From Candidatus Endobugula sp. (lineage in GTDB: Bacteria; Pseudomonadota; Gammaproteobacteria; Pseudomonadales; Cellvibrionaceae), in assembly GCA_020628895.1 (NCBI GenBank), contig JAHDEM010000001.1:144761-208760 (forward strand): a DNA stretch of 64,000 nucleotides. Direction: 5' to 3'. Each line of letters opens with the position of its first letter. Within the stretch, counting starts at the first letter, position 1. The position numbers and the translations under genes are program-made. Positions 38,587 through 63,439 of this stretch are shown here, one piece after another. The notes under the pieces were generated by a model. It saw nothing but the letters and a program-made list of their open reading frames with translations. It had not been told where the DNA came from and did not search any database.

Positions 38587-41500
38587 TTATTGCTTAGCCC
38601 TTCTATTTTTCTTGAAATTAAGCTTCTTAAGCTTTTCATAGTTAAATTGCCCAATCTTACTGCTAGTTTTAGTAAAGTCATAACTCCCTGTAAAATTGAC
38701 ATGTCTCCATGATAATACGCTGCCTTTTTTAATGGAGTCCAGCATATCTTCTTCATCTTGTTTATTTTTAGTTGAGGATAAATGCTTAGTTAAAAATAGG
38801 TAATTCCATAGGATAATGGCGTTTTGCATCAGTGATTTACACAGGATTTGTATTTCTTGCTCCTCTTTTGTGCCCACATAGAACTGTTTGCCTCTATCCC
38901 AAAATACCGCATCAGAGAACTTGTTCGACAATTCAACAACATTGAGTTGTTTCTGGATGCGTTGTCTAAATTCTAAGTCATCATAATAATTTAAAATATG
39001 TTGGCTTTTCGGTATTCGTCCTAGTTCTTTTAAAGCCTGGTAGAGTGGATGATCTTTTGCATAGGAATTAAGCCGTTTAAATATCTGCGATGCGCTACAA
39101 TGACCTAAGATAACACTCGCCATTAAGCGTAAAATATCGTCCCAACTGTCTTCTATAATTTCTGTTTTTATTTTTCGAGTCGGTAATACTCTATAGTCCT
39201 TATTTTTGTATTTTTCTTTCGTATGAAAACTATAAATATATTGATCTTCGATAGATTTAAAGCGTGGCGCAAAAGAAATCCCTAATAAGTGTGTGGCAGC
39301 AAAGATAGTTTCTGTATAACCATGTGTATCTGTTGTATGGATATGTCTCGTATCTGTTGTGTTATTCAGTAGACCATCAATAAGATACATAGCTTCACGA
39401 TCAGAAGAAGCAAATACCGTAGAATGAAAGAGTGACTGTTTTTCATTAATAAAGGTATACATCGCAACACCTTGCTCCTTACCATAGTATTTATAAGAAC
39501 GGGATGCTATCAATGAATCTACAGCAACAGTAATTTTCTTACCATCACTGCTAGTCAATAAGTGATTTTCATCAATTTTAAAGATATTTGGTAAGTCTAT
39601 TGATTCAATTTTATCAACAATCTTTTTATTGGCTGCTTGTAGGTTTTGTTTAGAAAAACGCCAATTGACAGTATCCAATAATATCTTATTTTGTATTCCA
39701 TGAGATTTTTTAGCCATTTTATGCGTGCCGATATTACAGCCAAGGCCCATAATGCCTGCAACGATCACTTTTTCTTTAGCCTCCTTGATGACCTTGCTGT
39801 TAGAGTGATGTTTAAAGCTACTTGTATAGTCACAAATACGATCCATCTCCATCAATATATGGATAATGGATATTTCATCATCACTAGACAGTAGGGTGCT
39901 GATATATTTAGATTGCTCGTGGTTGATAGCAGGAGTTTTTACATGAAATTTACCACTGGGACGCATGAATAAATAACCATTATGGCCAGCAGAAAATCTT
40001 TCATTAACTTTAATGTAAGTATCTTCTAATTTTTCTTTAAGATAATCTAAATGTTGTTGGCAATTTTTATATTTAAGCAAGTTGGTCGTGCGTAATATCG
40101 ACCCTTTTTCTTGCTCAAATTGTGCAACACTTATCATATAATCATTAATGTCACGATATTCAAAACTATAATTAAGCGATAATTTTCCTGATTTTATGCA
40201 TTCTGCAATGTGTATATACAAAAAGACTTTATACAACTTCTTATTGATGTGGCCTTCAGAAAACACCGCTTTCTTTTCTTTAGCGGTTAAAAATTGAGTG
40301 GGAGCATTTTCTCCCACTTTTCCTTTCTTTGATTGATAGTAACTAATAGCTTCCATGATATATGCTGATGAATTCACCTTATCAAATACTAATAATTGTA
40401 ATGTCTGGCTCAGCGAACGAATTAGACTTGTGGATTCTTCAATTAAGCCTTCGAGTAACATAAAATCTTGGCGCTCTTTTTCACGATAATCATCAAGAAA
40501 CTCAGATTTTTTAATAAATCCGTCATCTTGAGCATCAATAGCCTCAATGGCTTGATTACGAATAATTTCAATTTTTCTTTGGTCTGTTAATAAAGAGTCT
40601 TCGGTAATTCGTATGATTTCACTGACTAAACGTGTTAAAGCCTTTTGCGACTCGGATACTGCATCGATAGCTTTATTCTTTTTCGATTTTTGTTTTTCTT
40701 CATAATTCTTTGCTTTATTGAGTGCACGCTTTAAAGATTTACTGACCTTATCTAAGAAACCTTTAACAGCAGCATCCTGACGCTTAAAAAACTGACACTG
40801 AATAAACGCTATAAGATACAAATAGGCTTTATATGGATCTTTATATTGTTTGACTTGAAAGGTCGGAGCTTTAAGTACCCAGCTAGAATAATAGTTAATT
40901 GCTGAGTCAGTGAGCTGTAGTTCTTTAATGACTGTTTGGTTGTCCAAAAAGAACTGTTTAAGGTTTGACAGTATGACGGCATTTCGGTTGAGAGATTGTT
41001 GGCGACTAGATTGATTGATCCGCTTAATTTTCGTCAACACAGAAATAGAGCCGTCATGTGTTGTTAATAGTGTATTAAGAGAGTTAATATTGCTCGAAGG
41101 TAATAACTGTTTAAGATTGTCTATCGTGTTTGTTTCAAATGTCTGAGCACTCTTACCGACAATTTGGCTAAATACGTGATAGCTAGGGACAACCCACTGC
41201 ATATCGATACACTTGCTATGCAACGCCCAGAGTACATCCGATGGATTTGTTTGTTTAGCTGTATGCCATTTTGCTGTCTCGTGTAAGGTGTCCATCCCAG
41301 ACTCATTAATATGACTCCAGCCTCTAAATTCGAGTATTTTTTCTCGATGCCTCAATGATGAAGCACCACCATAAAGCGCTTCATAATTTTTAACGTCATT
41401 ATATTTATCCGACCAGGGGAGGTTATACATTTTATGGATATATTTGATATCAGCACACCGATATTGCCTAGCCTCAAAAAAACGGCCTTTAGCGATAAAA

Positions 41501-41676
41501 TAGCCATACTGCAGAAGAAAGCTGGTTTTATTATCAGTAGTGCGTAATCGCCGAAAATAACGGTACGCATCGGCATTCATCTCAAAGAATGCTTGACGCT
41601 CTTCATTGTTAAATTTAGGTATGGAATCAAAGGTCTTCTGTTGTTTCGCAGAGAGAATCTGGAGGGTTGTCGCCAT
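38587..41676 (-). CDS. tnpA: Tn3-family transposase
   Basis: 1029 residues, the usual size. The C-terminal half carries the Tn3 DDE domain (about 650-960), with G-C-N-I-G-T-H-K-M-A, H-T-T-D-T-H-G-Y-T-E and the late segments L-M-A-S-V-I-L-G-H and A-I-I-L-W-N-Y as recognisable landmarks. It catalyses replicative transposition by nicking at the terminal inverted repeats. The frame is intact from an ATG at 41676, so it may be active. A 58-base perfect palindrome lies 65 bases upstream of the start and probably insulates or regulates it. Confidence 0.95.
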   Translation of the reverse strand: MATTLQILSAKQQKTFDSIPKFNNEERQAFFEMNADAYRYFRRLRTTDNKTSFLLQYGYFIAKGRFFEARQYRCADIKYIHKMYNLPWSDKYNDVKNYEALYGGASSLRHREKILEFRGWSHINESGMDTLHETAKWHTAKQTNPSDVLWALHSKCIDMQWVVPSYHVFSQIVGKSAQTFETNTIDNLKQLLPSSNINSLNTLLTTHDGSISVLTKIKRINQSSRQQSLNRNAVILSNLKQFFLDNQTVIKELQLTDSAINYYSSWVLKAPTFQVKQYKDPYKAYLYLIAFIQCQFFKRQDAAVKGFLDKVSKSLKRALNKAKNYEEKQKSKKNKAIDAVSESQKALTRLVSEIIRITEDSLLTDQRKIEIIRNQAIEAIDAQDDGFIKKSEFLDDYREKERQDFMLLEGLIEESTSLIRSLSQTLQLLVFDKVNSSAYIMEAISYYQSKKGKVGENAPTQFLTAKEKKAVFSEGHINKKLYKVFLYIHIAECIKSGKLSLNYSFEYRDINDYMISVAQFEQEKGSILRTTNLLKYKNCQQHLDYLKEKLEDTYIKVNERFSAGHNGYLFMRPSGKFHVKTPAINHEQSKYISTLLSSDDEISIIHILMEMDRICDYTSSFKHHSNSKVIKEAKEKVIVAGIMGLGCNIGTHKMAKKSHGIQNKILLDTVNWRFSKQNLQAANKKIVDKIESIDLPNIFKIDENHLLTSSDGKKITVAVDSLIASRSYKYYGKEQGVAMYTFINEKQSLFHSTVFASSDREAMYLIDGLLNNTTDTRHIHTTDTHGYTETIFAATHLLGISFAPRFKSIEDQYIYSFHTKEKYKNKDYRVLPTRKIKTEIIEDSWDDILRLMASVILGHCSASQIFKRLNSYAKDHPLYQALKELGRIPKSQHILNYYDDLEFRQRIQKQLNVVELSNKFSDAVFWDRGKQFYVGTKEEQEIQILCKSLMQNAIILWNYLFLTKHLSSTKNKQDEEDMLDSIKKGSVLSWRHVNFTGSYDFTKTSSKIGQFNYEKLKKLNFKKNRRAKQ

Positions 41677-41740: not shown

Positions 41741-41798
41741 TGATCAAAAAACACCCATTTCTGTATAGTACTATACAGAAATGGGTGTTTTTTGATCA
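41741..41798. repeat. 58-base perfect palindrome upstream of tnpA
   Basis: Two 29-base arms meet without a loop; the left arm starts TGATCAAAAAACACCC and the centre is TATAGTACTATA. The A run before and T run after a GGGTG/CACCC core give it terminator character on both strands. A partial copy of the central part, AGTACTATACATAAAT, recurs at 41884-41899 upstream of the SprT-like gene. It may be a bidirectional terminator, an operator, or both. Confidence 0.85.
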
Positions 41799-51736: not shown

Positions 51737-52282
51737 ATGACTATTATAAAAACGCTAGTCGCTGTCATAATCTTCACTCTTGTTGTCGGTTTAGGTGTTA
51801 TCTATTCCGGTATTTACCCCATCGGTGCAGACCAGCGGCACTCTGCTGTGACTTTTTGGTTACTGGATACATTACGTAAACGCTCCGTTGCTCGTGCATC
51901 AGAAGATATCGAAGTCCCATCACTGGGAAGCCCGCAACAATTACTCAGTGGCGGGGCAGACTATAACGATATGTGTGCAGGCTGCCACCTTAAGCCCGGT
52001 GTCACAGAAACGGATATGACGATTGGTTTATATCCAACGCCACCTGATCTGACGGTACCACCAGAAAAACACGACCATGATCATGGCTCCGGTGGTCATG
52101 ATGACCCAGTGGTTATTGCTAAGCAGCAATACTGGGTCATTAAGCATGGCATTATGGCATCAGGCATGGCGGCTTTTGGGCCGACACACAGTGATGAACG
52201 CATTTGGGCGATGGTGGCTTTTTTACAGAAGTTGCCAGAAATGACCCCAGAGCAATATCAAATTATTACAACGAGGCGATAA
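51737..52282 (+). CDS. Membrane-anchored c-type cytochrome
   Basis: 181 residues. One N-terminal anchor helix (about 5-27), then a mono-haem motif C-A-G-C-H (80-84). A His/Gly/Asp insert (H-D-H-D-H-G-S-G-G-H-D-D) follows, then the probable axial Met in A-S-G-M-A-A-F-G. The insert suggests metal binding. It has no counterpart in island A. It starts behind TAGGAG and ends two bases before the next cytochrome gene, implying coupling. Confidence 0.85.
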   Translation: MTIIKTLVAVIIFTLVVGLGVIYSGIYPIGADQRHSAVTFWLLDTLRKRSVARASEDIEVPSLGSPQQLLSGGADYNDMCAGCHLKPGVTETDMTIGLYPTPPDLTVPPEKHDHDHGSGGHDDPVVIAKQQYWVIKHGIMASGMAAFGPTHSDERIWAMVAFLQKLPEMTPEQYQIITTRR

Positions 52283-52284
52283 CT

Positions 52285-52797
52285 ATGAAGATGCGAACAA
52301 TAACACTGGTTATCTGTCTGTTTCTGGTATTGATGGTGACGGCTTGTGATAAAAAAGAAAAGGAGACACCTGCTGTGTCAATAAATACAAGCAGTAACTC
52401 AGCTTCTTTTGCCGAGCTCACATTAACACCAAAATCAGGAACGGATCGTTGGTATTTTGCGGAGCAAGCAGAGCGTGGGCAGGCTGTTTTTGCGGCTAAC
52501 TGTGCTGTTTGCCATGGCAACAATGCAGAGGCTACACCGCACTGGAAAACCCCTAACGATAGTGGCCATTATCCGCCGCCACCTCTAAACGGTTCTGCTC
52601 ATGCTTGGCATCATCCTTTATCCATTCTTGGGCGCACTATTTATTTTGGTGGTGCACCAGTGGGAGGGCAAATGCCAGCCTTTAAAGATAAATTAACAGA
52701 ATCCGACATCATTGATGTCATTGCACACTTTCAAAGTTATTGGTCAGACGACATCTATGATCGCTGGTTACAAATTGAAAATAGTTCACGAAATTAA
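52285..52797 (+). CDS. c-type cytochrome lipoprotein (island B)
   Basis: 170 residues from the ATG at 52285. The lipobox V-T-A-C places the lipidated Cys at 21. The haem motif is C-A-V-C-H (73-77), and the Met ligand is probably in G-G-Q-M-P-A-F. It is a close paralogue of the cytochrome at 27526, with the G-H-Y-P-P-P-P-L-N-G-S-A-H-A-W-H-H core and the C-terminus identical or nearly so. The first ~45 residues diverge, as expected for a lipoprotein leader and linker. Confidence 0.87.
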   Translation: MKMRTITLVICLFLVLMVTACDKKEKETPAVSINTSSNSASFAELTLTPKSGTDRWYFAEQAERGQAVFAANCAVCHGNNAEATPHWKTPNDSGHYPPPPLNGSAHAWHHPLSILGRTIYFGGAPVGGQMPAFKDKLTESDIIDVIAHFQSYWSDDIYDRWLQIENSSRN

Positions 52798-52823
52798 TAT
52801 TCCTATAACAGGAGAAAACCAAT

Positions 52824-53375
52824 ATGTTTACTCAACTTTTTTTACGCTTATTAGTCATCATGGTAGTTATCGTACCCATTTATTCTCAGGCGATAGAAAC
52901 AAAACCTTATGCCGGACAGCATACCCGATCCATTAAAAGTCTGAGTGATGATGATATTCATTCATTAAAAACAGGGCAGGGTTGGGGGCTGGCAAAGCCT
53001 GCAGAACTTAATGGTGTGCCAGGACCAGCACATATTTTGGAATTAAAAGATGAACTGAAACTATCCGAAGAACAACTGGTAGCCATTCAAGCACTGTGGG
53101 AAGAAATGAATCAGTCTGCACGACAATACGGTGAATTGTATCTGCAGAGCGAAGCTAAGATTGAAGCGTTTTTTAATACACCTGATGCAGACGAAGCGTT
53201 ATTACTGAAGTTACTTTCGGAGTCAGCGAATAATTTGGCACAGTTGCGCCATGTTCATCTACAGACACATTTAAAGGCTAAACCATTATTAACAGTGCAT
53301 CAAAATATGCTTTACCAAAAATTACGCGGATATGCTGATGGTACTCATCCAAAGGGGCATCAACATAAACATTAA
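52824..53375 (+). CDS. Spy/CpxP-like periplasmic protein (island B)
   Basis: 183 residues with a signal peptide ending near S-Q-A. The body is highly similar to the island A protein at 28077 (H-S-L-K-T-G-Q-G-W-G-L-A-K-P-A-E). Helical LTxxQ-like segments and a His-rich end (H-P-K-G-H-Q-H-K-H) suggest a periplasmic chaperone or metal-binding role. It is the last gene of the cus operon. AGGAG precedes the ATG. Confidence 0.72.
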   Translation: MFTQLFLRLLVIMVVIVPIYSQAIETKPYAGQHTRSIKSLSDDDIHSLKTGQGWGLAKPAELNGVPGPAHILELKDELKLSEEQLVAIQALWEEMNQSARQYGELYLQSEAKIEAFFNTPDADEALLLKLLSESANNLAQLRHVHLQTHLKAKPLLTVHQNMLYQKLRGYADGTHPKGHQHKH

Positions 53376-53382
53376 CGGCTTA

Positions 53383-54813
53383 TCAGCACGCTTTATGAAA
53401 AGCGTGCTGTAACATAATCAATTCCTCATAAAACTGTCCAGACAGCGATAAATTTTTCTGATCAGCAACATAGACGCCTTCTTCTGTCATTGACTGAACA
53501 TTAATGTCTACATCCGAGTGTAAACTCTCTTCAGTGACCGGTGTAACAGGAGACCCTAAAGAAAGATTATTTTGCTGTTGATCACTTAGAATCATATCGA
53601 AGTTATCTCGTTCAATATGAGTTTCCTCTTGCATGTTATTGAGTTCAACTGTAGCTAAATGTTCGGGTAAATCATCACCAATAGATTTGGCATAAGTTAA
53701 CAGAGTGTCTTCCGCTAATATGTACATATAAGCAAAAGGGAGCTTTTCTTGTTGGGAACGCACAATACGTCCAAGCACTTGCCGAAAGTATAATTCTGTT
53801 TTAATACGGCTTAGATAGCAGCAAAGCTGCAAACGGGGAATATTGGTGCCTTCACTGATCATACCGATGGCGATAATCCATTGAGAGTCAGAGTGTTCAA
53901 ATTCTTCAATAATACGATGGGCATGATTATCTTCATGGGAGACAACAATCGACGATTGATCTAATTCACTCTTGAGTAATGCTTTAATCCAATAGGCATG
54001 ATGAACGGATGAGGCCACAATTAAACCAGCTGCCTGTGGATTTTGTTGGCGAATAGACTGTAGCTTTTCAACGGATTGTTGCAGCATAAAGGTCACAATC
54101 GACGAGTGGTGTAGTAAGTCACTATAACGAACATCAGTATTCTCGAGTAACTCACCGATACTACCATATTCCTCGGGTTCATCGGCTCTATTAGTATGAC
54201 GAATTTGGTCATTATCAATGGCTACTACTTTAGGGATCCGGCACACGCCATCATGAATAGCTTGCGCGAGGGAATAGATATAATCACATTCGAGTTTACT
54301 GGGATCACCACTATAACGTGCGAGCGCAATCGGTAATTTATCGGAGCGCCATGGCGTACCTGATAACGCTAATGTATAGGCTGCACGTGAACGAATATTC
54401 CGTAGTATTTTCTCTCCCCATACATTTGCCAAATTGATATCGTGACCGCCACAGTGATGAATTTCATCAAAGATAACAAACACACGATATTCTCGAAAAA
54501 CATCCCAAAAACTACCGGATAAAAAGCTTAAACTGTGATAGGTAAGCACTTGCCCTGACGATCCCATCCGACCATTCATACGCTTTTCTGTGATCGCTTC
54601 GAGGTTGTGCTGAAAACTGTTGGTGACACTAATGGATGGCGTGAAGCAAATCACTAAATCAATTTTATCAAGATCAAACAAGCGACTGGCTAGATGTGCG
54701 GCCATCCGTGTTTTGCCAGCACCTGGTGTTGCCATCGCTAGAAAATCGGTCTGACCGAGTTGGTATTTCAGTAGCGCAGTGGTAATGCATTCATCTTGCC
54801 ACAATCTTAACAT
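53383..54813 (-). CDS. SF2 DEAD/DEAH-type helicase
   Basis: 476 residues. Motifs in order: the Q-like start L-R-L-W-Q-D-E-C-I, Walker A A-T-P-G-A-G-K-T (about 28-35), Walker B F-D-E-I-H-H, L-S-G-T-P-W-R, then the second RecA domain with I-G-M-I-S-E-G-T-N-I-P and Q-V-L-G-R-I-V-R-S. No nuclease domain is visible; the last ~90 residues are acidic and unassigned. The domain set resembles helicases of phage-defence or restriction systems. It follows the wHTH gene by 17 bases on the same strand. Confidence 0.85.
   Translation of the reverse strand: MLRLWQDECITTALLKYQLGQTDFLAMATPGAGKTRMAAHLASRLFDLDKIDLVICFTPSISVTNSFQHNLEAITEKRMNGRMGSSGQVLTYHSLSFLSGSFWDVFREYRVFVIFDEIHHCGGHDINLANVWGEKILRNIRSRAAYTLALSGTPWRSDKLPIALARYSGDPSKLECDYIYSLAQAIHDGVCRIPKVVAIDNDQIRHTNRADEPEEYGSIGELLENTDVRYSDLLHHSSIVTFMLQQSVEKLQSIRQQNPQAAGLIVASSVHHAYWIKALLKSELDQSSIVVSHEDNHAHRIIEEFEHSDSQWIIAIGMISEGTNIPRLQLCCYLSRIKTELYFRQVLGRIVRSQQEKLPFAYMYILAEDTLLTYAKSIGDDLPEHLATVELNNMQEETHIERDNFDMILSDQQQNNLSLGSPVTPVTEESLHSDVDINVQSMTEEGVYVADQKNLSLSGQFYEELIMLQHAFHKAC
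53384..53409. repeat. Inverted repeat between cus operon and helicase gene
   Basis: Perfect 11-base arms CAGCACGCTTT (53384-53394) and AAAGCGTGCTG (53399-53409) with a 4-base loop. It is a terminator-like hairpin without a T run and overlaps the 3' codons of the convergent helicase gene. The terminator of island A has a similar GCGCTTT/AAAGCG core. Confidence 0.65.
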
Positions 54814-54830
54814 AGTGTTTCCTTCATTAA

Positions 54831-55361
54831 TTAGCAGGCTACGGTCTCGATCAACTTCTCAATCGCACGAATACGACCTAGCATGCGATAGTTTTCATCA
54901 ACAACCTGCTTAAACTGGGTTGTTGCAACGACCTCTAGCTCTGGATATTGGTCACGAATACGTCGATATTCTTCAATCTCACCCAATTGGCTCAACATGG
55001 TTTGTCGATAAGACTTTAATTCTTCGTGAAGTACACTGTTCTCTGCAGAAGCTGCTACGGGCGTTTTGGGTGTATCATCTAGCATTTTCTGCTGCGGCAT
55101 TGATTGTTGTGCGTAGTACTCAGCAAAATAGGGGCTTTTTTCAAAATAGTGCTTTTTACTTCCGGGTACTGATTTGCGGATTAAAACGCCTCTATTGACA
55201 AGTGTTGTAAATTTTCCATTGATCCAACGGCGTACTGCCGCGGCGTCAAGTTTGCCATCGGTACACTGCTCAATAAATTGGTCCCTAATCTCGGTGACAC
55301 GAATACGTGCTGATTGGGATTGATGCAATACCGTTAAAAGGATTCGATCTTTATTTTTCAT
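54831..55361 (-). CDS. Hypothetical winged-helix/coiled-coil protein
   Basis: 176 residues, family not recognised. The first ~70 residues look like a winged-helix DNA-binding fold (R-W-I-N-G-K-F-T-T-L-V-N-R-G-V-L-I-R-K). Residues 110-170 form a coiled coil. It is upstream of the helicase in the same operon and divergent from an XRE regulator. It is probably the DNA-recognition or adaptor part of a helicase complex (inference). Confidence 0.6.
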   Translation of the reverse strand: MKNKDRILLTVLHQSQSARIRVTEIRDQFIEQCTDGKLDAAAVRRWINGKFTTLVNRGVLIRKSVPGSKKHYFEKSPYFAEYYAQQSMPQQKMLDDTPKTPVAASAENSVLHEELKSYRQTMLSQLGEIEEYRRIRDQYPELEVVATTQFKQVVDENYRMLGRIRAIEKLIETVAC

Positions 55362-55417
55362 GAGTTGATTCTTGCGCCAAAAAAAGAGGATTATAGTCCG
55401 TGGTCTTTAAATCCTCA

Positions 55418-55456
55418 ATCCCGACAATGAAAGGATTGTCATTAATCGGTTGGGAT
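55418..55456. promoter_or_regulatory. Palindromic operator between helicase operon and XRE gene
   Basis: Nested dyads GACAAT (55423-55428) / ATTGTC (55435-55440) and ATCCC (55418-55422) / GGGAT (55452-55456), the last just before the XRE start at 55459. The layout resembles C-boxes of restriction-modification controller proteins and suggests autoregulation. Confidence 0.5.
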
Positions 55457-55458
55457 AA

Positions 55459-55686
55459 ATGGAAAACCTTGAGGTATGTTTCGGTCAAAATGTGCGTAAG
55501 GCTCGGAGAAAACAGCGTATTTCTCAAGAGAACCTTGCATTAATTGCCGGCATCGATCGCAGTTATATGAGTAGGATAGAGCGAGGGATTGTCAGTATTA
55601 CCTTGCAGAAAGCCTATGTGATCGCCCAAGCCTTAGAATGCGATATAAAAGACTTGTTGCCGACAATGGCACAACTGAAGGGCTAG
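55459..55686 (+). CDS. XRE-family HTH regulator, controller-protein-like
   Basis: 75 residues consisting almost only of a Cro/C1 helix-turn-helix: I-S-Q-E-N-L-A-L-I-A-G-I-D-R-S-Y-M-S-R-I-E-R-G. Size and sequence resemble C proteins of restriction-modification systems. It is divergent from the wHTH-helicase operon over a palindromic region, so it probably times or represses that operon. Convergent with the GDCCVxC gene, two bases apart. Confidence 0.82.
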   Translation: MENLEVCFGQNVRKARRKQRISQENLALIAGIDRSYMSRIERGIVSITLQKAYVIAQALECDIKDLLPTMAQLKG

Positions 55687-55688
55687 TA

Positions 55689-55913
55689 TCAACAACAGCT
55701 ATTTTTATTGTCTGGTGCTAACTGAATAGGAGGACAGGGAACAGTGCCATAGGAGCAATAAACACAGCAATCACCCGCTTTAGGGCTAATAACTTCGCTA
55801 CATTCTGTGCACTCATAAAACCATTGGCATGCATCCGTCGGCATCGTTTCCTGTTTCGAGAACCCACAATTAGGGCAAGTAATGGTAGATTCTAACTGAT
55901 ATTCTGCATTCAT
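55689..55913 (-). CDS. GDCCVxC-domain protein of mer locus
   Basis: 74 residues with nine Cys. The segment A-G-D-C-C-V-Y-C-S-Y-G-T-V-P-C-P-P identifies the GDCCVxC family found with mercury genes. An N-terminal zinc-ribbon-like C-P-N-C and C-T-E-C are also present. It probably binds Hg2+ or Zn2+ in the cytoplasm. It follows merP by two bases as the last gene of this operon. Confidence 0.85.
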   Translation of the reverse strand: MNAEYQLESTITCPNCGFSKQETMPTDACQWFYECTECSEVISPKAGDCCVYCSYGTVPCPPIQLAPDNKNSCC

Positions 55914-55915
55914 GA

Positions 55916-56200
55916 TTATTGGTCTTTTCGAGTTGAAGGATAGCCCGTATTTTTTGTCGCTAGTGTTAAGTTTTCTAGCGTAACCTTCTCATCATCATAA
56001 GTGACTACAGCCTCCTTATTTTCTAAGCTAGTTTCTACAGTTTTAACGCCATTCACCGCTTCTAATGATTTCTGAACAGTGATAGGGCAAACAGGGCAAT
56101 TCATGTCAGGAACAGAGAGGGTAACGCGCTGTATGTCTGCCCACGATGGAGATGTGAAACTGATAGTAGATAAAATAAATACGGAAAAAATACGTTTCAT
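55916..56200 (-). CDS. merP: Periplasmic mercury-binding protein MerP
   Basis: 94 residues from the ATG at 56200 (AGAGG Shine-Dalgarno); a longer frame reaching 56275 only overlaps merT. A signal peptide ends near W-A-D. The HMA domain has the ligand pair D-M-N-C-P-V-C (Cys35, Cys38). It passes Hg2+ to MerT. The gene lies eight bases after merT. Confidence 0.92.
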   Translation of the reverse strand: MKRIFSVFILSTISFTSPSWADIQRVTLSVPDMNCPVCPITVQKSLEAVNGVKTVETSLENKEAVVTYDDEKVTLENLTLATKNTGYPSTRKDQ

Positions 56201-56208
56201 AATGACCT

Positions 56209-56562
56209 CTAGAAAAACCATAGTACCCAATAGGGGCTCAAAATTAATATGATAGATATGACCAACAACCCCCAAAATATGAGGCGATAATAGCGGCGGG
56301 TTTCAGGAATGGCACAAACACTTCCTTCTTTACACTGTGAGATCGGGCGATAAAGCTGCCAGCCGATATAGAGGTATAAGATAGCAAAAACACCAATAAA
56401 GTAGGGACGTACTGCATCAAATGCAGTTAACGTGCTAATCCAGGACCCAGTAACACCAAGAACCAATAATAGTAATGGTCCGATACAGCAGACACTTGCA
56501 CCAATTGCAGCAAATATACCGCCACCTAAAAGCCAGTTAGGCGAGCTTCTTTTCATAATCAT
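56209..56562 (-). CDS. merT: Mercuric transport protein MerT
   Basis: 117 residues, three membrane helices. The Cys pair V-C-C-I-G-P (Cys25, Cys26) in helix 1 and a second pair in the C-K-E-G-S-V-C loop are as expected. It imports Hg2+ from MerP into the cytoplasm, normally for reduction by MerA, which is absent from this window. It is the first gene after the mer promoter. Confidence 0.94.
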   Translation of the reverse strand: MIMKRSSPNWLLGGGIFAAIGASVCCIGPLLLLVLGVTGSWISTLTAFDAVRPYFIGVFAILYLYIGWQLYRPISQCKEGSVCAIPETRRYYRLIFWGLLVISIILILSPYWVLWFF

Positions 56563-56577
56563 GACCTCTGCTTATGA

Positions 56578-56608
56578 GTATAAGTGCCGTACCCAAGTAC
56601 GGAGTCAA
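56578..56608 (-). promoter_or_regulatory. mer operon promoter/operator
   Basis: On the minus strand: TTGACT (56608-56603), a 19-base spacer CCGTACTTGGGTACGGCAC and TTATAC (56583-56578). The dyad CCGTAC-N4-GTACGG is the classical MerR binding site of Tn21/Tn501-type mer operons. It lies between merR and merT, both of which read leftward. Confidence 0.93.
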
Positions 56609-56620
56609 CTAACACGGCAT

Positions 56621-57007
56621 TTAATTCGTAATTAATGACTCAATTAAAGGGCAGTGGTTTCCATCAATATTCGAGTGGCATGCTTGAAGTAACTGTTTTA
56701 AGCTGTGTTCCAGTTGTTTTAGGTCGCTAATTTTTGTTTGAATGCTTTGCAGCTTATTTTCTGCTAATTGCTGGATATCTTGACAACTGTCAGTATTGAG
56801 CTGGATAAGAGTATTAATTTCGTTCAGTGTGAATCCTAGTGTTTGTGCACGTTTGATAAATAATAGTGCCGTGAGTGTTGACTCTGGGTATTGACGGTAG
56901 CCTTGGGTCGGTTTCTGCGGCTGAGTAATAAGTTGTTGCCGCTCATAGTAACGTACCGTTTCTACGGTTACATCTGCTGCTTTAGCGAGTTGGCTAATAG
57001 TGTACAT
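56621..57007 (-). CDS. merR: Mercury-responsive regulator MerR
   Basis: 128 residues. The helix-turn-helix begins Y-T-I-S-Q-L-A-K-A-A-D-V-T-V-E-T-V-R-Y-Y-E-R. All three Hg2+ ligands are present: the Cys in D-S-C-Q-D, and A-C-H-S-N-I-D-G-N-H-C-P-L-I with C-x8-C spacing, 35 residues after the first. It should repress and, with Hg2+, activate the promoter at 56578. It is transcribed in the same direction as merTP instead of divergently. Confidence 0.93.
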   Translation of the reverse strand: MYTISQLAKAADVTVETVRYYERQQLITQPQKPTQGYRQYPESTLTALLFIKRAQTLGFTLNEINTLIQLNTDSCQDIQQLAENKLQSIQTKISDLKQLEHSLKQLLQACHSNIDGNHCPLIESLITN

Positions 57008-57021
57008 ATATCATGATTCCA

Positions 57022-57999
57022 TTAAATATCGTCGTTATGGTCAAAAAATTGTTCCATCTTTTCAAATAATACTAGTGCTGCGTTGTCAGTAAATTGCTGG
57101 CCTTCTTCAATGTATTCATGGACGGTAGCATCATTTTTCCAGCCGCCTTGTTTTTTGATAAGTCCAAAATCAACTTTTTCTCGAGCGGCAGACGTGGATA
57201 ATCCTCGGCGAAAGCTATGGCTACTCAACAGAGGAATAAAATCAAACCCACTTTCACTGCCTAATAGTTTAAGTATTTGATTAATAGAGCCTGGATTAAG
57301 CGGCTTTTCACCCAACTGATCCCAGCGATTAATCGATCGAAAAATGGGCCCTTTGGTGATAGCAGAAAGTTCCAACCAGTTTATAAGAGCTCTTACTGGG
57401 CAAATAGTTTCTCGTTCTGTTGACGGAATGGCACGTATGATACCTTCGCCTTCTTGGTCTGTTTTTGAGCGTGCTAATGTGATCACAACACCATCAGAGT
57501 GCCATTCAATGTCCTCGTATTGAATAGCAGCCAACTCGCTACGCCTAAAAGCCCCAAAAAAGGCGATTAGGATTAAGGCAACATCACGTGCTTTCTTTTG
57601 TGAATCCGGCTTTGCCTGTAATGTTTTAATGAGTGTCGCAATATGCTCTAAACGTAGGGCTTTCGCTTTTTGCTTGGGCTTACCGTGCTGACGTTGAATA
57701 CCTTTCATGGTCTTTTTGACCAATAAGCTCTGAGTGGGGTCGTTGAATCCTTGCGAGGCATGCCACTGACTGAGCGCTGATAAATGCAGTGATAGGCTCC
57801 TAGGGTTTAGTGTTTGTGCATTTTTAGTGAGATAAGTCAGGATGTGCTCTTCAGAGCAGGGGAGTTTTAACCCCCACTGCTGTACACGACGTACCGCCGA
57901 TTGATAAGTTTTACGAGTATTTTCCGAGGTTGCTGCCGTAATGTAGTGTTGCGGCGTAGCTCGTTTTATTTCATTCGCGGTGGTGCGTATTTCTCTCAT
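57022..57999 (-). CDS. tnpS: Tyrosine recombinase, TnpS-like cointegrate resolvase
   Basis: 325 residues, the size of TnpS of Tn4651. The catalytic residues appear in A-F-R-R-S-E-L (Arg I), H-S-F-R-R-G (His-x-x-Arg), G-G-W-K and V-H-E-Y-I-E-E-G (Tyr nucleophile). It is divergent from a coiled-coil KfrA-type gene across a palindrome-rich region, the diagnostic tnpS-res-tnpT layout. Its task would be resolving cointegrates formed by TnpA. The start is ATG at 57999. Confidence 0.82.
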   Translation of the reverse strand: MREIRTTANEIKRATPQHYITAATSENTRKTYQSAVRRVQQWGLKLPCSEEHILTYLTKNAQTLNPRSLSLHLSALSQWHASQGFNDPTQSLLVKKTMKGIQRQHGKPKQKAKALRLEHIATLIKTLQAKPDSQKKARDVALILIAFFGAFRRSELAAIQYEDIEWHSDGVVITLARSKTDQEGEGIIRAIPSTERETICPVRALINWLELSAITKGPIFRSINRWDQLGEKPLNPGSINQILKLLGSESGFDFIPLLSSHSFRRGLSTSAAREKVDFGLIKKQGGWKNDATVHEYIEEGQQFTDNAALVLFEKMEQFFDHNDDI

Positions 58000-58184
58000 T
58001 ATTGCTTGTCAGCCTATTTCCAGTGTTTTGTATCGTCTTACATTTGCCTAATCGTTTTTCCATTATATAACATACGATAATATTGATTATAGTAAGTTAT
58101 ATAGACTAATTAATAAACAAATAAATATTGACAATATTATGTAATATTACATAATACGTATTACATTATGAAATATAACGAGTA
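58000..58184. other. res-like recombination site between tnpS and tnpT
   Basis: AT-rich, with ordered repeats. A 12-base inverted pair TATATAACATAC (58064-58075) and GTAAGTTATATA (58092-58103), one mismatch, spaced by 16 bases, looks like a recombinase core site. Right of it is a 22-base perfect palindrome centred on TGTAATATTACA (58135-58156), then TAATACGTATTA (58152-58163) and a further TATTACATTATG. The repeated ATTACATWAT half-site is a likely TnpT binding element. Promoters for both genes should also lie here. Confidence 0.7.
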
Positions 58185-59216
58185 ATGATTATGGCCAGAG
58201 CAGGCGTTACTTATACTGAAGTTGCTAAAGCAGCGGAAACATTAAAGCAGCAGGGCCAAGACCCAACGATTGAGCGTGTGCGCGGACTTTTAGGAACGGG
58301 TAGTAACAGCACGCTAAATAAGCATTTAAAGCAATGGAAAAACACACATCTTGAAGAAGGAAGCATCTCTGGCTTACCGGATGATTTGCTAAGAACGGTG
58401 AAGTCGCTTCATGAAAGCATTCAAGGTAATGCCGAGCTAAAGATTGAAGAAGTTACAAGAGAACTTAACGCTGTTATTGATGACCTTAGAGCTAAGCTTA
58501 CAGCGGCTCAAGAACAGAATAATAGACTTACCCATAACAATGAGCAGTTAACTCAACAAAGCGAAGAGTTAAGCAATCAATTAGAAATTGCCAATAAAGA
58601 CAACCTTACTTATCAGCTAAAACAAGAACAGCTAGAGCAAAATGTTACTCGTTTAACATCGGAATTAGCTGAGGAAAAAGGGAGCGCCAAACAACTACAG
58701 GCACATATTGAGCACTATCAAGAAAAAACAGCTGAGGATCGCCAGCAAGAAAGAAATCAACATCAATTAGCACAGCAACAGTCGCAGAATTATATTAATC
58801 AATTAACAGTTCAAGTCAACGAATTAACTAAGCAAATCTCAGTATTGCGCTCGCAAGAGGAAGAGAGTAGCACTGCTATCTCTAATTTAGAAAAAGAAAA
58901 AGTTGTATTGGCACAAAGACTTAATGAAGAAACCAATAAAAATGAAAATTTAAATGCCAATTTGACACTTAAAACTTCAGAAATTGAAAAACTGATAGAA
59001 ACAAAACAAAAATTGCAGGATGATTATAGATCAGCGTTTGCTGAAAAATCAGTCGCTGAAAAAGCAGTTGAACATCTATCAGTTACTCTTCAAAAAACTG
59101 AGTCTGACCTTGATGATGCGAAAGAACGCTTGCTGTTAGTAAGTGAAGAAAACAAACTCGTCATACAACAAAAAGCAGAAATGCAAGGTCAATTAAACCA
59201 GTTACAGAATTCGTGA
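58185..59216 (+). CDS. tnpT: KfrA-type DNA-binding coiled-coil protein, TnpT-like
   Basis: 343 residues. The first ~75 are a KfrA_N DNA-binding domain (V-A-K-A-A-E-T-L-K-Q-Q-G with T-I-E-R-V-R-G-L-L-G-T-G-S-N-S-T), the remainder a continuous coiled coil rich in Gln, Glu and Lys. TnpT of Tn4651 has this architecture and assists TnpS by binding the res site. The divergent tnpS-like gene makes this reading the best. A plasmid-type KfrA is the alternative. Confidence 0.78.
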   Translation: MIMARAGVTYTEVAKAAETLKQQGQDPTIERVRGLLGTGSNSTLNKHLKQWKNTHLEEGSISGLPDDLLRTVKSLHESIQGNAELKIEEVTRELNAVIDDLRAKLTAAQEQNNRLTHNNEQLTQQSEELSNQLEIANKDNLTYQLKQEQLEQNVTRLTSELAEEKGSAKQLQAHIEHYQEKTAEDRQQERNQHQLAQQQSQNYINQLTVQVNELTKQISVLRSQEEESSTAISNLEKEKVVLAQRLNEETNKNENLNANLTLKTSEIEKLIETKQKLQDDYRSAFAEKSVAEKAVEHLSVTLQKTESDLDDAKERLLLVSEENKLVIQQKAEMQGQLNQLQNS

Positions 59217-59240
59217 TAATGATTATTAGAGGGTAGTGAT

Positions 59241-59984
59241 ATGGCAACTAATAGTAAGATTGAATGGACAGAACAAACATGGAATCCTGTAACCGGTTGT
59301 ACAAAAGTATCGCCTGGTTGTAAGTATTGTTATGCTGAAGTTATGGCAAAACGTTTACAAGCAATGGAGGCGCCTGGATATGAGAATGGTTTTAGTCAAA
59401 TTAGCTTAATGTACGATCGATTAGATCAGCCTAAGCGACGTAAAAAACCAACAATATACTTTGTAAACTCCATGAGTGATTTGTTTCATGAAAGCGTGCC
59501 TGATGATTTTATTGACTTAGTCTTTGATACGATTTGGCAAACACCACGACACTCGTATCAGATACTCACAAAACGCTCTAAGCGCATGAGAGATTACTTT
59601 AAAAAGCGTTTGGTACCAGATAATGCATGGCTAGGGGTTTCGGTAGAAGATAAAGAGTATGGGGTACCAAGAATTGCAGACCTGCAAAACATTAATGCAA
59701 AAACTCGCTTCTTATCAGTCGAGCCACTTTTAGAAAAACTAGGGCGTATTCCATTAAAAGGCATTCATTGGGTGATTGTTGGTGGTGAGTCTGGTGTAAA
59801 AGCACGCCCAATGCGGGAAGAGTGGGTATTATCATTACGTGACCAATGTCGTCGCTATGAAATTGATTTCTTCTTTAAACAGTGGGGCAGCTGGGGTAAA
59901 GATGGAATCAAAAGAAATAAGTCTGCGAATGGTCGACAACTAGAGGGGCAAACATGGGATATGATACCAGCGATTGCCGTTTAA
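59241..59984 (+). CDS. DUF5131 (phage Gp37/Gp68) three-Cys-motif protein
   Basis: 247 residues. The Cys motif C-x6-C-x2-C (Cys20, 27, 30) within C-T-K-V-S-P-G-C-K-Y-C-Y-A-E resembles radical-SAM-like metal sites. Y-F-V-N-S-M-S-D-L-F-H, I-L-T-K-R-S-K-R and G-G-E-S-G are family segments of phage Gp37/Gp68 (DUF5131). The biochemical activity is unknown. It is followed after 20 bases by its usual partner, TcmP. Confidence 0.85.
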   Translation: MATNSKIEWTEQTWNPVTGCTKVSPGCKYCYAEVMAKRLQAMEAPGYENGFSQISLMYDRLDQPKRRKKPTIYFVNSMSDLFHESVPDDFIDLVFDTIWQTPRHSYQILTKRSKRMRDYFKKRLVPDNAWLGVSVEDKEYGVPRIADLQNINAKTRFLSVEPLLEKLGRIPLKGIHWVIVGGESGVKARPMREEWVLSLRDQCRRYEIDFFFKQWGSWGKDGIKRNKSANGRQLEGQTWDMIPAIAV

Positions 59985-60004
59985 AATAACGAGAGGGATT
60001 ATCA

Positions 60005-61180
60005 TTGGCAATTCCAGAACATTATATTGGTAGAGAGCAAGCACTTGTAAAGCATACGATATTAAAAGATTATATACTACGTTTATTTATGATTATTGGG
60101 CAATCAGGTGAAGCTACAATCAATTTTGTTGATTGTTTTGCTGGCCCGTGGTGCGAAGGAGATGCCGATCTAAAAGATACCTCTATCGGTATTTCTATCA
60201 ACGAAATCAACAAGGCTATCAATACTCTCAAAAAGAATAATAAAAGTGTTAAATTTAGGGCACTTTATATAGAAAAAGATGATGAAGCTTTCAAAAAACT
60301 GAATGCTTTCATTTCTAAATCATCACATCAGCAACTTGACGCTTCTTGTGTACAAGGCGATTACACCCAAAAAATAGATGAAATTGTTAGCTGGGCCGGA
60401 GATTATTTTACATTTTTCTTCATTGACCCCAAGGGATGGAAAGATGTTGTTAGCCCTGAGGTTTTACGCCCGCTATTACAAATCAAAAAATCCGAATTTT
60501 TAATCAATCTTATGTATGACTTCGCCAATCGAGCTGCCAGTATGAGTAAGCATATAGAAGATATTGAATCTCTAGTCGGTGAGAGAATTCATCTAACAGG
60601 TGAAGAGACATCTGATGTTCGTCAAAATATTTTTCTTAGTACATATTGTAAAAATATTAAATCAATCTATCAAACGGATAAGGCCAACAAAGTTCGTGCC
60701 TCTTATTTACCAATATATAGGCCTGGAAGTGAAAAAGTCCTTTATTTTTTAGTGTATTTTACTTCGCACCCAACAGGAATTAAAACGTTTAAAGAAACAT
60801 CTGAAAAAATGCTCTATGTTCAGCGAGTAACACAACAAGAAGTGAGACTAAAGAAGCAAGAAGAACAAAGAGGAACTGGAGATTTGTTTGGTTGCGATGA
60901 ATCACTAGAATTAACATCTGAAAAAAATAATAAGTACCAAGCTAAATATTATTTAGAAGATAAGCTTTCAGATGCTGAAGATATACTCATAGATATTGAC
61001 TGCTGGGCAGACTTTTTAGAGGAAAGTGGCTTATACCCAACTGATTTTCAACTTGCAATAAAAGAGTTATATCAGCAGGGCAGTGTTGTTAATATAGACT
61101 CTGATGTTAGCAGACGCAGAACACAATTTATTCAACCCAAATGGAAAAGCAAAAGTGAGCGTTGGAAAAAAATAAAATAG
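60005..61180 (+). CDS. tcmP: Three-Cys-motif partner protein TcmP
   Basis: 391 residues. N-terminal segment I-N-F-V-D-C-F-A-G-P-W and the F-F-F-I-D-P-K-G-W motif are typical of TcmP, which has a methyltransferase-like look; activity is undefined. It pairs with the DUF5131 gene, a conserved two-gene unit spread on mobile elements. The start is TTG at 60005 with GAGAGGG upstream. A fragment of the 3' end of a second tcmP is at 62557. Confidence 0.87.
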   Translation: MAIPEHYIGREQALVKHTILKDYILRLFMIIGQSGEATINFVDCFAGPWCEGDADLKDTSIGISINEINKAINTLKKNNKSVKFRALYIEKDDEAFKKLNAFISKSSHQQLDASCVQGDYTQKIDEIVSWAGDYFTFFFIDPKGWKDVVSPEVLRPLLQIKKSEFLINLMYDFANRAASMSKHIEDIESLVGERIHLTGEETSDVRQNIFLSTYCKNIKSIYQTDKANKVRASYLPIYRPGSEKVLYFLVYFTSHPTGIKTFKETSEKMLYVQRVTQQEVRLKKQEEQRGTGDLFGCDESLELTSEKNNKYQAKYYLEDKLSDAEDILIDIDCWADFLEESGLYPTDFQLAIKELYQQGSVVNIDSDVSRRRTQFIQPKWKSKSERWKKIK

Positions 61181-62656: not shown

Positions 62657-63439
62657 TTATATATTTGCCAATGCATCTTCTACGACTTCTTCTGGCGGCT
62701 CTTCATAAATAATAGTGGTTGATGGATTAACATGACCAGCAATTTTTTGTGCGATTTTCAATGACTTTTTCTGTTTATGAATAATATTAGTGATTAATGC
62801 TCGTCGCCCAGAATGAGAACTTGCTTTTTCAATACCCGCCCAAGAGCGCAACATCAGAGCCATGTGTTCTTGCAAAGTGTTAGGAGAGTAGGGACCACCT
62901 TTTTGTGTTAAGAAAAGGGGGGCAGTAGGTTTTAAATGTGAATCTTTTTCTAACCGTATTTGCAGATAATTAGCCAGCGCTTTACGAAGCTCATCATCAA
63001 CCATTGGTAAATCACGTGACTTACCTTTATGTTTTTTAACAGGAGGATAAAAGTCTTCCGGGTTAATTTCAGCCCCAGCTTTTGCTAAAGCTTCTACTTG
63101 GCTAATCATCGCATCAAAGGCTTCGATTTTAAAACTAACCGATTGGCGCTTATACGTAGATTTAGAACGTTTCATCGCATCTGCGCCTTTGGTGTAAGCT
63201 GCAGGCAAACTCATCACTTCATGCAACACAAAGGATCGATCAGTGCTTTTGGTGTAATTATCGAGACTAGCAATTTCTTTGACTTGGAGTAGAGCAATTT
63301 CTTGAGCTCGCAGGCCAAGCTTGAAGCTGATCTGCATAATTGCCGTATTCTTTTCTGGATGACGTTTGGATTTAATAGCATCGAATAATTGTGCTTGTTG
63401 CTGCTTGCTAGGAACACGTGCTTGACCAGATTTCGCCAT
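62657..63439 (-). CDS. Tyrosine recombinase/integrase, catalytic domain only
   Basis: 260 residues. Catalytic elements: K-L-G-L-R-A-Q-E-I (Arg), S-S-H-S-G-R-R (His-x-x-Arg), G-H-V-N-P and I-I-Y-E-E-P-P (Tyr). The N-terminal core-binding (SAM-like) domain of phage integrases is missing, so it may be a shortened or specialised family. It is not similar to the TnpS-like protein beyond the family motifs. It begins next to the tcmP fragment, suggesting that it took part in a deletion or insertion. Intact frame. Confidence 0.8.
   Translation of the reverse strand: MAKSGQARVPSKQQQAQLFDAIKSKRHPEKNTAIMQISFKLGLRAQEIALLQVKEIASLDNYTKSTDRSFVLHEVMSLPAAYTKGADAMKRSKSTYKRQSVSFKIEAFDAMISQVEALAKAGAEINPEDFYPPVKKHKGKSRDLPMVDDELRKALANYLQIRLEKDSHLKPTAPLFLTQKGGPYSPNTLQEHMALMLRSWAGIEKASSHSGRRALITNIIHKQKKSLKIAQKIAGHVNPSTTIIYEEPPEEVVEDALANI

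Follow-up and report, generated by a model that had tools for sequence, protein, structure and literature searches.

The analysed stretch of DNA (the window, 64,000 nucleotides) contains a trio of genes encoding an SF2 helicase or translocase, a small partner protein and a controller-type XRE regulator (Table 1). The partner and helicase genes lie on the reverse strand with a gap of 17 bp between them, and the XRE gene diverges from the partner gene across an intergenic region of 97 bp. The original prediction, made from the sequence alone, had located the three open reading frames as the ORF list does, and its identities hold: the helicase matches the Pfam profiles ResIII and Helicase_C, the partner is modelled as a winged-helix and coiled-coil protein, and the regulator matches PADLOC and C.AhdI. 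It had also placed the trio on a mobile element, in accordance with the nearby genes for a Tn3 TnpA, a TnpS-like and a TnpT-like protein. As it had remarked, there is no nuclease or methylase in the trio or its immediate neighbours; neither a restriction endonuclease nor a methyltransferase is found there in the ORF list or with Pfam, NCBIfam and PADLOC profiles, and the locus is thus not a type II restriction–modification (R-M) system. An Rfam search of 52000–59300 returned nothing.

Table 1 Positions of the trio, its control sites and genes of the carrying element in the window.
Feature	Position	Strand	Basis or remark
Tn3-family transposase, probable mover of the region	38587..41676	-	NF033527, 1.2e-183
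SF2 helicase/translocase, 476 aa	53383..54813	-	two RecA domains, no nuclease domain
Partner protein, 176 aa, winged helix (residues 2–87) and helical hairpin (residues 104–175)	54831..55361	-	
Palindrome GAGGATT...AATCCTC	55386-55416		
Predicted operator CCACGGACTATAATCC, core GGACTATAATCC	55388..55403	-	conserved in relatives
Promoter of the partner–helicase operon, TTGAGG-17-TATAAT, overlapped by the operator	55390..55418	-	sequence; same spacing in relatives
Palindrome GACAAT-N6-ATTGTC, between the operator and the XRE start	55423..55440	.	
Controller-type XRE regulator, 75 aa	55459..55686	+	
TnpS-like tyrosine recombinase of the carrying element	57022..57999	-	profile match; at 16 further loci a homologue lies close to the trio
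TnpT-like KfrA_N protein of the carrying element	58185..59216	+	

Among NCBIfam models, RadD, EcoAI-type HsdR and Dnd match the helicase at the sub-family level only, and its RadD equivalog score (37.3 bits against a cut-off of 720) leaves it outside RadD. The SF2 motifs GAGKT, DEIHH, GTPWRSD and QxxGRxxR are invariant in 43 homologues, so the helicase is very probably an active ATPase. The structural model (pLDDT 83) consists of two RecA domains, a disordered linker (residues ~411–462) and a conserved C-terminal helix (residues 457–475), with no nuclease domain. In structure comparison, the nearest solved fold is RadD (E 1e-14), followed by type ISP, SauUSI, XPB and HsdR. Distant viral cousins of the helicase, at 26–33% identity, have no partner and mostly lack the C-terminal tail; the profile extends over the tail in the majority of trio helicases and stops short of it in 27 of the 30 partner-less viral homologues. 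This distribution makes the tail a candidate partner-binding element. A phage origin of the module was rejected, as the partner is absent from 30 viral contigs with a distant helicase. Annotated phage genomes hold no copy beyond one helicase at 32%.

The model of the partner (pLDDT 91) is composed of an N-terminal winged helix, a linker and a C-terminal two-helix coiled coil. Its closest folds in structure comparison are PadR/VanR-type regulators (best E 1.7e-3), and it has no family match in Pfam, NCBIfam, PADLOC or PHROG. A nuclease role was rejected, given an all-helical hairpin and a winged helix with no conserved catalytic set. Across the whole class, its profile finds a single match, a weak one, in 368 other evenly drawn genomes. 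The partner of pMAO6 (L003, 7483–8007) is annotated ‘transcriptional regulator VspR’. In V. parahaemolyticus pHLA (L109, 7340–11992), the XRE and partner occur without the helicase and are followed by IetA/IetS (PADLOC 3.2e-98 and 1.8e-277), which suggests that the regulatory half can be placed before other operons. In V. alfacsensis pSEA1 (L110, 7657–8531), an integrative element has the XRE–partner pair by itself next to its integrase genes. These two elements, which lack the helicase, raise the possibility that the partner also acts as a regulator independently.

The XRE matches the PADLOC ‘Control_protein’ profile (1.6e-15) and the known C proteins C.AhdI (3.9e-9) and C.BclI (6.5e-8). It qualifies as C-protein type, being a short XRE-HTH protein whose palindromic operator core, GGACTATAATCC, overlies the −10 of the operon that diverges from it. 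The whole predicted operator, CCACGGACTATAATCC, covers the −10 box of the promoter reading into the partner–helicase operon. With up to three mismatches, an operator is positioned on the −10 in 37 of the 54 loci of the main XRE family, compared with 0.2% of shuffles. Of 39 non-redundant loci, 28 have a TATAAT promoter ahead of the partner. The nested palindromes of the original prediction are present in the intergenic region, but the site that relatives keep is the operator. In particular, the GACAAT palindrome was rejected as the key site, as it is partial in the nearest relative (L027) and not seen in more distant ones. We also rejected control of the transposon itself by the XRE: the exact operator is present as a single copy in the window and in the whole genome, and no second site with up to three mismatches is found in the window.

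The divergent XREs fall in three sequence clusters. The two other XRE families have unrelated operators at the same intergenic place and keep the same layout; one of them has CTAAG-N5-CTTAG boxes of the C.Csp231I type (PMC4321490), beside a TATACT −10. Since three unrelated sites share one layout, they argue for selection on repression of the partner–helicase operon. No consensus promoter for the XRE was found in the intergenic region, which fits a promoter needing activation.

In R-M systems, the C protein delays a dangerous enzyme. The original prediction had likewise read the layout of the trio as timing that delays something dangerous on entry into a new cell. In the window, however, the operator overlaps the −10 from which the helicase operon is read. 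In V. parahaemolyticus, the homologous XRE, VpxR (VPA1391), acts in the native host as an activator of its own promoter and a repressor of VPA1392 (PMC12150760). From these two observations, expression of the operon is expected at entry, with repression to follow. The helicase operon is thus predicted to be placed where an early, later-repressed gene would be, the reverse of a delayed dangerous effector, and the claim of a delay is not supported.

In 144 genomes of the host’s family, we count 37 intact partners and, independently, 37 intact helicases, all in the same genomes; with such co-occurrence, the association is not chance, and the recurrence that the original prediction proposed to check is real. 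Of 106 helicase loci drawn from plasmids and genomes, 100 have the partner immediately upstream of the helicase. In the other six it is still recognisable: fused in two records, intact in another reading in two and reduced to remnants in two. A divergent XRE is found at about 90 of the 106 loci, and beyond the trio the next most frequent neighbour cluster reaches at most 17. The helicase, partner and divergent XRE are a real, recurrent module of the VPA1391–1393 type, with a constant gene order and a common operator. Its homologues did not turn out to be part of a replication or conjugation module. Searches of the open literature found only partial descriptions of the recurrent trio, and the primary paper on the Xre regulators of CRISPR-associated transposons (CASTs) may mention the module. 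The natural partner–helicase fusion (668 aa; L014 898–2904 and L029 4666–6672) has the same sequence in both records, which probably represent one MAG lineage.

The neighbours of the trio in the window are the Tn3 TnpA, TnpS, TnpT and metal genes. No convincing terminal repeats were found as transposon ends. A perfect 58-bp palindrome (41741–41798) lies just upstream of the Tn3-family tnpA; no further copy of its 29-bp arm is present in the window. An imperfect palindrome (58137–58178) between the divergent tnpS- and tnpT-like genes is a plausible resolution site. On the right side, a second tyrosine recombinase (62657–63439) is best matched in its C-terminal half only, and is possibly truncated or part of another element. 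The same element type as in the window is found at L027, where the trio abuts tnpS. Identities between the two are 67% for TnpS, 58% for TnpT, 90% for DUF5131 and 96% for TcmP. The DUF5131 and TcmP pair (59241–61180, same element; the DUF5131 protein matches the PADLOC candidate PDC-M30/M41 at 7.5e-108) is 90–96% identical against 58% for the flanking TnpT, which suggests that it may have been exchanged recently and separately. At six further loci (L014, L016, L017, L019, L029 and L036), the gene immediately downstream of the helicase encodes a TnpS-like tyrosine recombinase, unlike the arrangement in the window. Some relatives adjoin four-gene recombinase operons, identified by gene order and annotation, as are typical of GInt/SE islands (PMC5385486, PMC10214605). 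By clustering, no window ORF near the trio groups with the large GInt-type proteins of L003–L006.

Neighbours were compared with control loci at fixed distances, 150–300 kb away on the same contigs. The 122 neighbouring proteins at 20 loci of the host’s family include 10 integrases, 5 Tn3 transposases and 4 KfrA_N proteins, as well as copper, iron and mercury genes; integrases, Tn3 transposases and KfrA_N are absent from the top families of the control loci. Defence proteins, counted as PADLOC matches at E≤1e-20, amount to at most about 6 of 122, compared with about 4 of 117 in the controls. The recurrence in defence islands that the original prediction raised is therefore not supported in the host’s family, and as a defence-island marker the trio gives a mixed picture: outside the family, in a sample without control loci of its own, type I R-M genes are frequent near it, often beside it in Colwellia, Shewanella and Pseudoalteromonas. 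Single loci have CBASS, SIR2 with TrlF, or short Argonaute (L039) nearby, and IetAS adjoins the helicase-less pair of L109. Carriage by mobile elements is constant, whereas the company of defence genes depends on the lineage.

At three loci (L031, L059 and L100), the trio adjoins cas6 with arrays, and tnsCBA lies on its other side in L059 and L100. The order in L059, tniQ-cas8-cas7-cas6-XRE-partner-helicase-tnsC-tnsB-tnsA, is that of VPA1387–VPA1396 in V. parahaemolyticus VpaI-7, a type I-F3a CAST (PMC12150760). VPA1393 is annotated as an SSL2 SF2 helicase (PMC11961994). Judged by annotation, gene order and these papers, the trio of the window is homologous to VPA1391–1393. In the CAST loci the core operator GGACTATAATCC has two copies, one ahead of the partner gene and the other ahead of the atypical CRISPR unit, with one mismatch in L100. 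Zygotic induction has been shown by I-F3 CASTs (PMC11406308). In VpaI-7, the atypical array, unlike VPA1392, is repressed only on VpxR overexpression, and whether VPA1392 belongs to the CAST was left unsettled (PMC12150760). None of TnsABC, TniQ, Cas8/5-7-6 or an array is recognised among the profiled window ORFs near the trio.

Other CASTs carry the module in whole or in part. The I-F3b-like CAST of THAF190c has all three genes; in that of V. penaeicida, the XRE and partner genes are followed by helicase sequence for which the plasmid table lists no gene. Tn6900 and the P. toruni CAST have the XRE only, without partner and helicase, and their XREs group with trio XREs with support of 100/99, in a tree of few columns without an R-M outgroup. 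It is possible, though we hold it doubtful, that the crRNA switches of CASTs (RtaC in I-F3a, RtbC in I-F3b) were recruited at least twice, from different XRE families, out of one ancestral stand-alone module. In that module the XRE would time a winged-helix/helicase machine that helps any mobile element to establish, a general zygotic-induction cassette of Tn3 transposons, GInt/SE islands and CASTs. The direction of recruitment, from module to CAST, is presumed.

For a module with this pairing, layout, operator, recurrence and mobile carriage, we infer an early burst at entry, cooperation of two proteins on DNA and a role in establishment. The reading that we favour, tentatively and at a little under an even chance, is that the trio serves mobile elements as a self-contained accessory module, a one-shot switch whose burst of DNA translocase acts just after entry, during establishment. 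The winged-helix protein and the SF2 motor would cooperate on DNA, the small protein binding DNA or an adaptor and loading or directing an ATP-driven duplex translocase. In a newly entered cell that lacks the regulator, the near-consensus operon promoter would be active. The XRE, as a C-protein-like dimer, would then activate its own promoter, accumulate, bind the operator over the −10 and shut the operon off; this step has been shown in the literature for the V. parahaemolyticus homologue and would hold likewise in the window. In the last and least certain step, the burst would act in the establishment phase, most likely bringing incoming DNA past host defences or giving other help in establishment, for example by translocating along DNA and stripping or remodelling proteins, forks or R-loops.

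The establishment reading is favoured by the 37:37 pairing, the C-terminal tail, the conserved operator on the −10, the VPA homologue, zygotic induction in CASTs and the mobile-element neighbours. Against it, an early burst alone does not tell its purpose; the helicase-less pairs of pHLA and pSEA1 and the array that yields only to overexpressed VpxR fit it poorly; and the type I R-M company in Colwellia, Shewanella and Pseudoalteromonas is as expected of a defence cassette. Such a cassette is the main rival. In an uncharacterised two-protein anti-phage or anti-plasmid system, the winged-helix protein would recognise invading DNA or a replication intermediate, the helicase would attack or block it and the XRE would limit self-harm. 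A helicase with a small DNA-binding partner is a common defence architecture, the motor’s fold neighbours include the restriction motors HsdR and SauUSI, and relatives lie beside type I R-M, CBASS and short Argonaute, or, as the XRE–partner pair alone, beside IetAS. However, no PADLOC 2.0.0 system is matched beyond generic XRE and helicase domains (none for the partner, partial matches to generic motor domains for the helicase), defence neighbours are few in the host’s family, and annotated phage genomes are nearly devoid of copies. Steady-state repression with an early burst would also be an odd plan for standing immunity; the timing cuts against the argument from delay and leaves defence at about one third.

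Two further rivals rank lower. The trio could be a helper of the element that carries it: in a new host it would act on forks, cointegrates or recombination intermediates and so assist that element’s transposition or recombination. It does adjoin TnpS/TnpT-like genes, lies between tnsABC and tniQ-cas in CASTs, where its XRE box is common to the targeting crRNA, and stands beside GInt/SE-like recombinase operons. We nevertheless regard this as unlikely, since the elements that bear the trio use unrelated chemistries to move, partner and helicase are missing from Tn6900 and the P. toruni CAST, and GInts are described as needing only ginABCD (PMC5385486). More improbable still is an addiction cassette, in which loss of the element would dilute the XRE, de-repress a toxic partner–helicase pair and kill the cured cell. 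Such a cassette would be expected to have one closely positioned repressor site and to be widespread on mobile elements, as holds for the trio, but no toxin-like domain is present, elements with XRE and partner and no helicase are tolerated, and firing also at entry would penalise the element.

An unstudied helicase pair is thereby linked to the switch that times RNA-guided transposition. As its operon should fire at entry, the place to look for its role is the recipient just after transfer rather than the established cell. Should the pair act against host defences, it would be a factor for establishment that several element types have in common. Should it instead be a defence system, it would be one that current catalogues miss, with copper/mercury transposons and large Pseudomonas and enterobacterial plasmids as its carriers. 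The module also offers a possible origin for CAST regulators that have been described as independently co-opted.

Among known systems, RadD, XPB and the type I restriction motors resemble the helicase in fold and sequence family, although the helicase has neither the RadD-specific C-terminus nor any nuclease domain. The likeness to VspR of V. cholerae VSP-1, a CBASS repressor, consists in the annotation of the pMAO6 partner alone and is a lead only. The C proteins of type II R-M systems (C.AhdI, C.Csp231I, C.Esp1396I) are like the XRE in size, fold family, operator type and autoregulatory logic; those systems pair them with a restriction enzyme and methyltransferase that the trio lacks, and the operon controlled here is a helicase pair. 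The Xre regulators RtaC and RtbC belong to I-F3a and I-F3b CASTs, and CAST XREs of both types fall among or group with trio XREs, whereas Tn6900 and the P. toruni CAST retain the XRE only and the window element is Tn3-like. In VpxR, VPA1392 and VPA1393, the XRE also controls an atypical CRISPR array, in contrast to the window, with its one exact operator and no recognised CAST; the likeness lies in gene order and orientation, as in the CAST loci L031, L059 and L100, in the helicase annotation and in an operator positioned over TATAAT.
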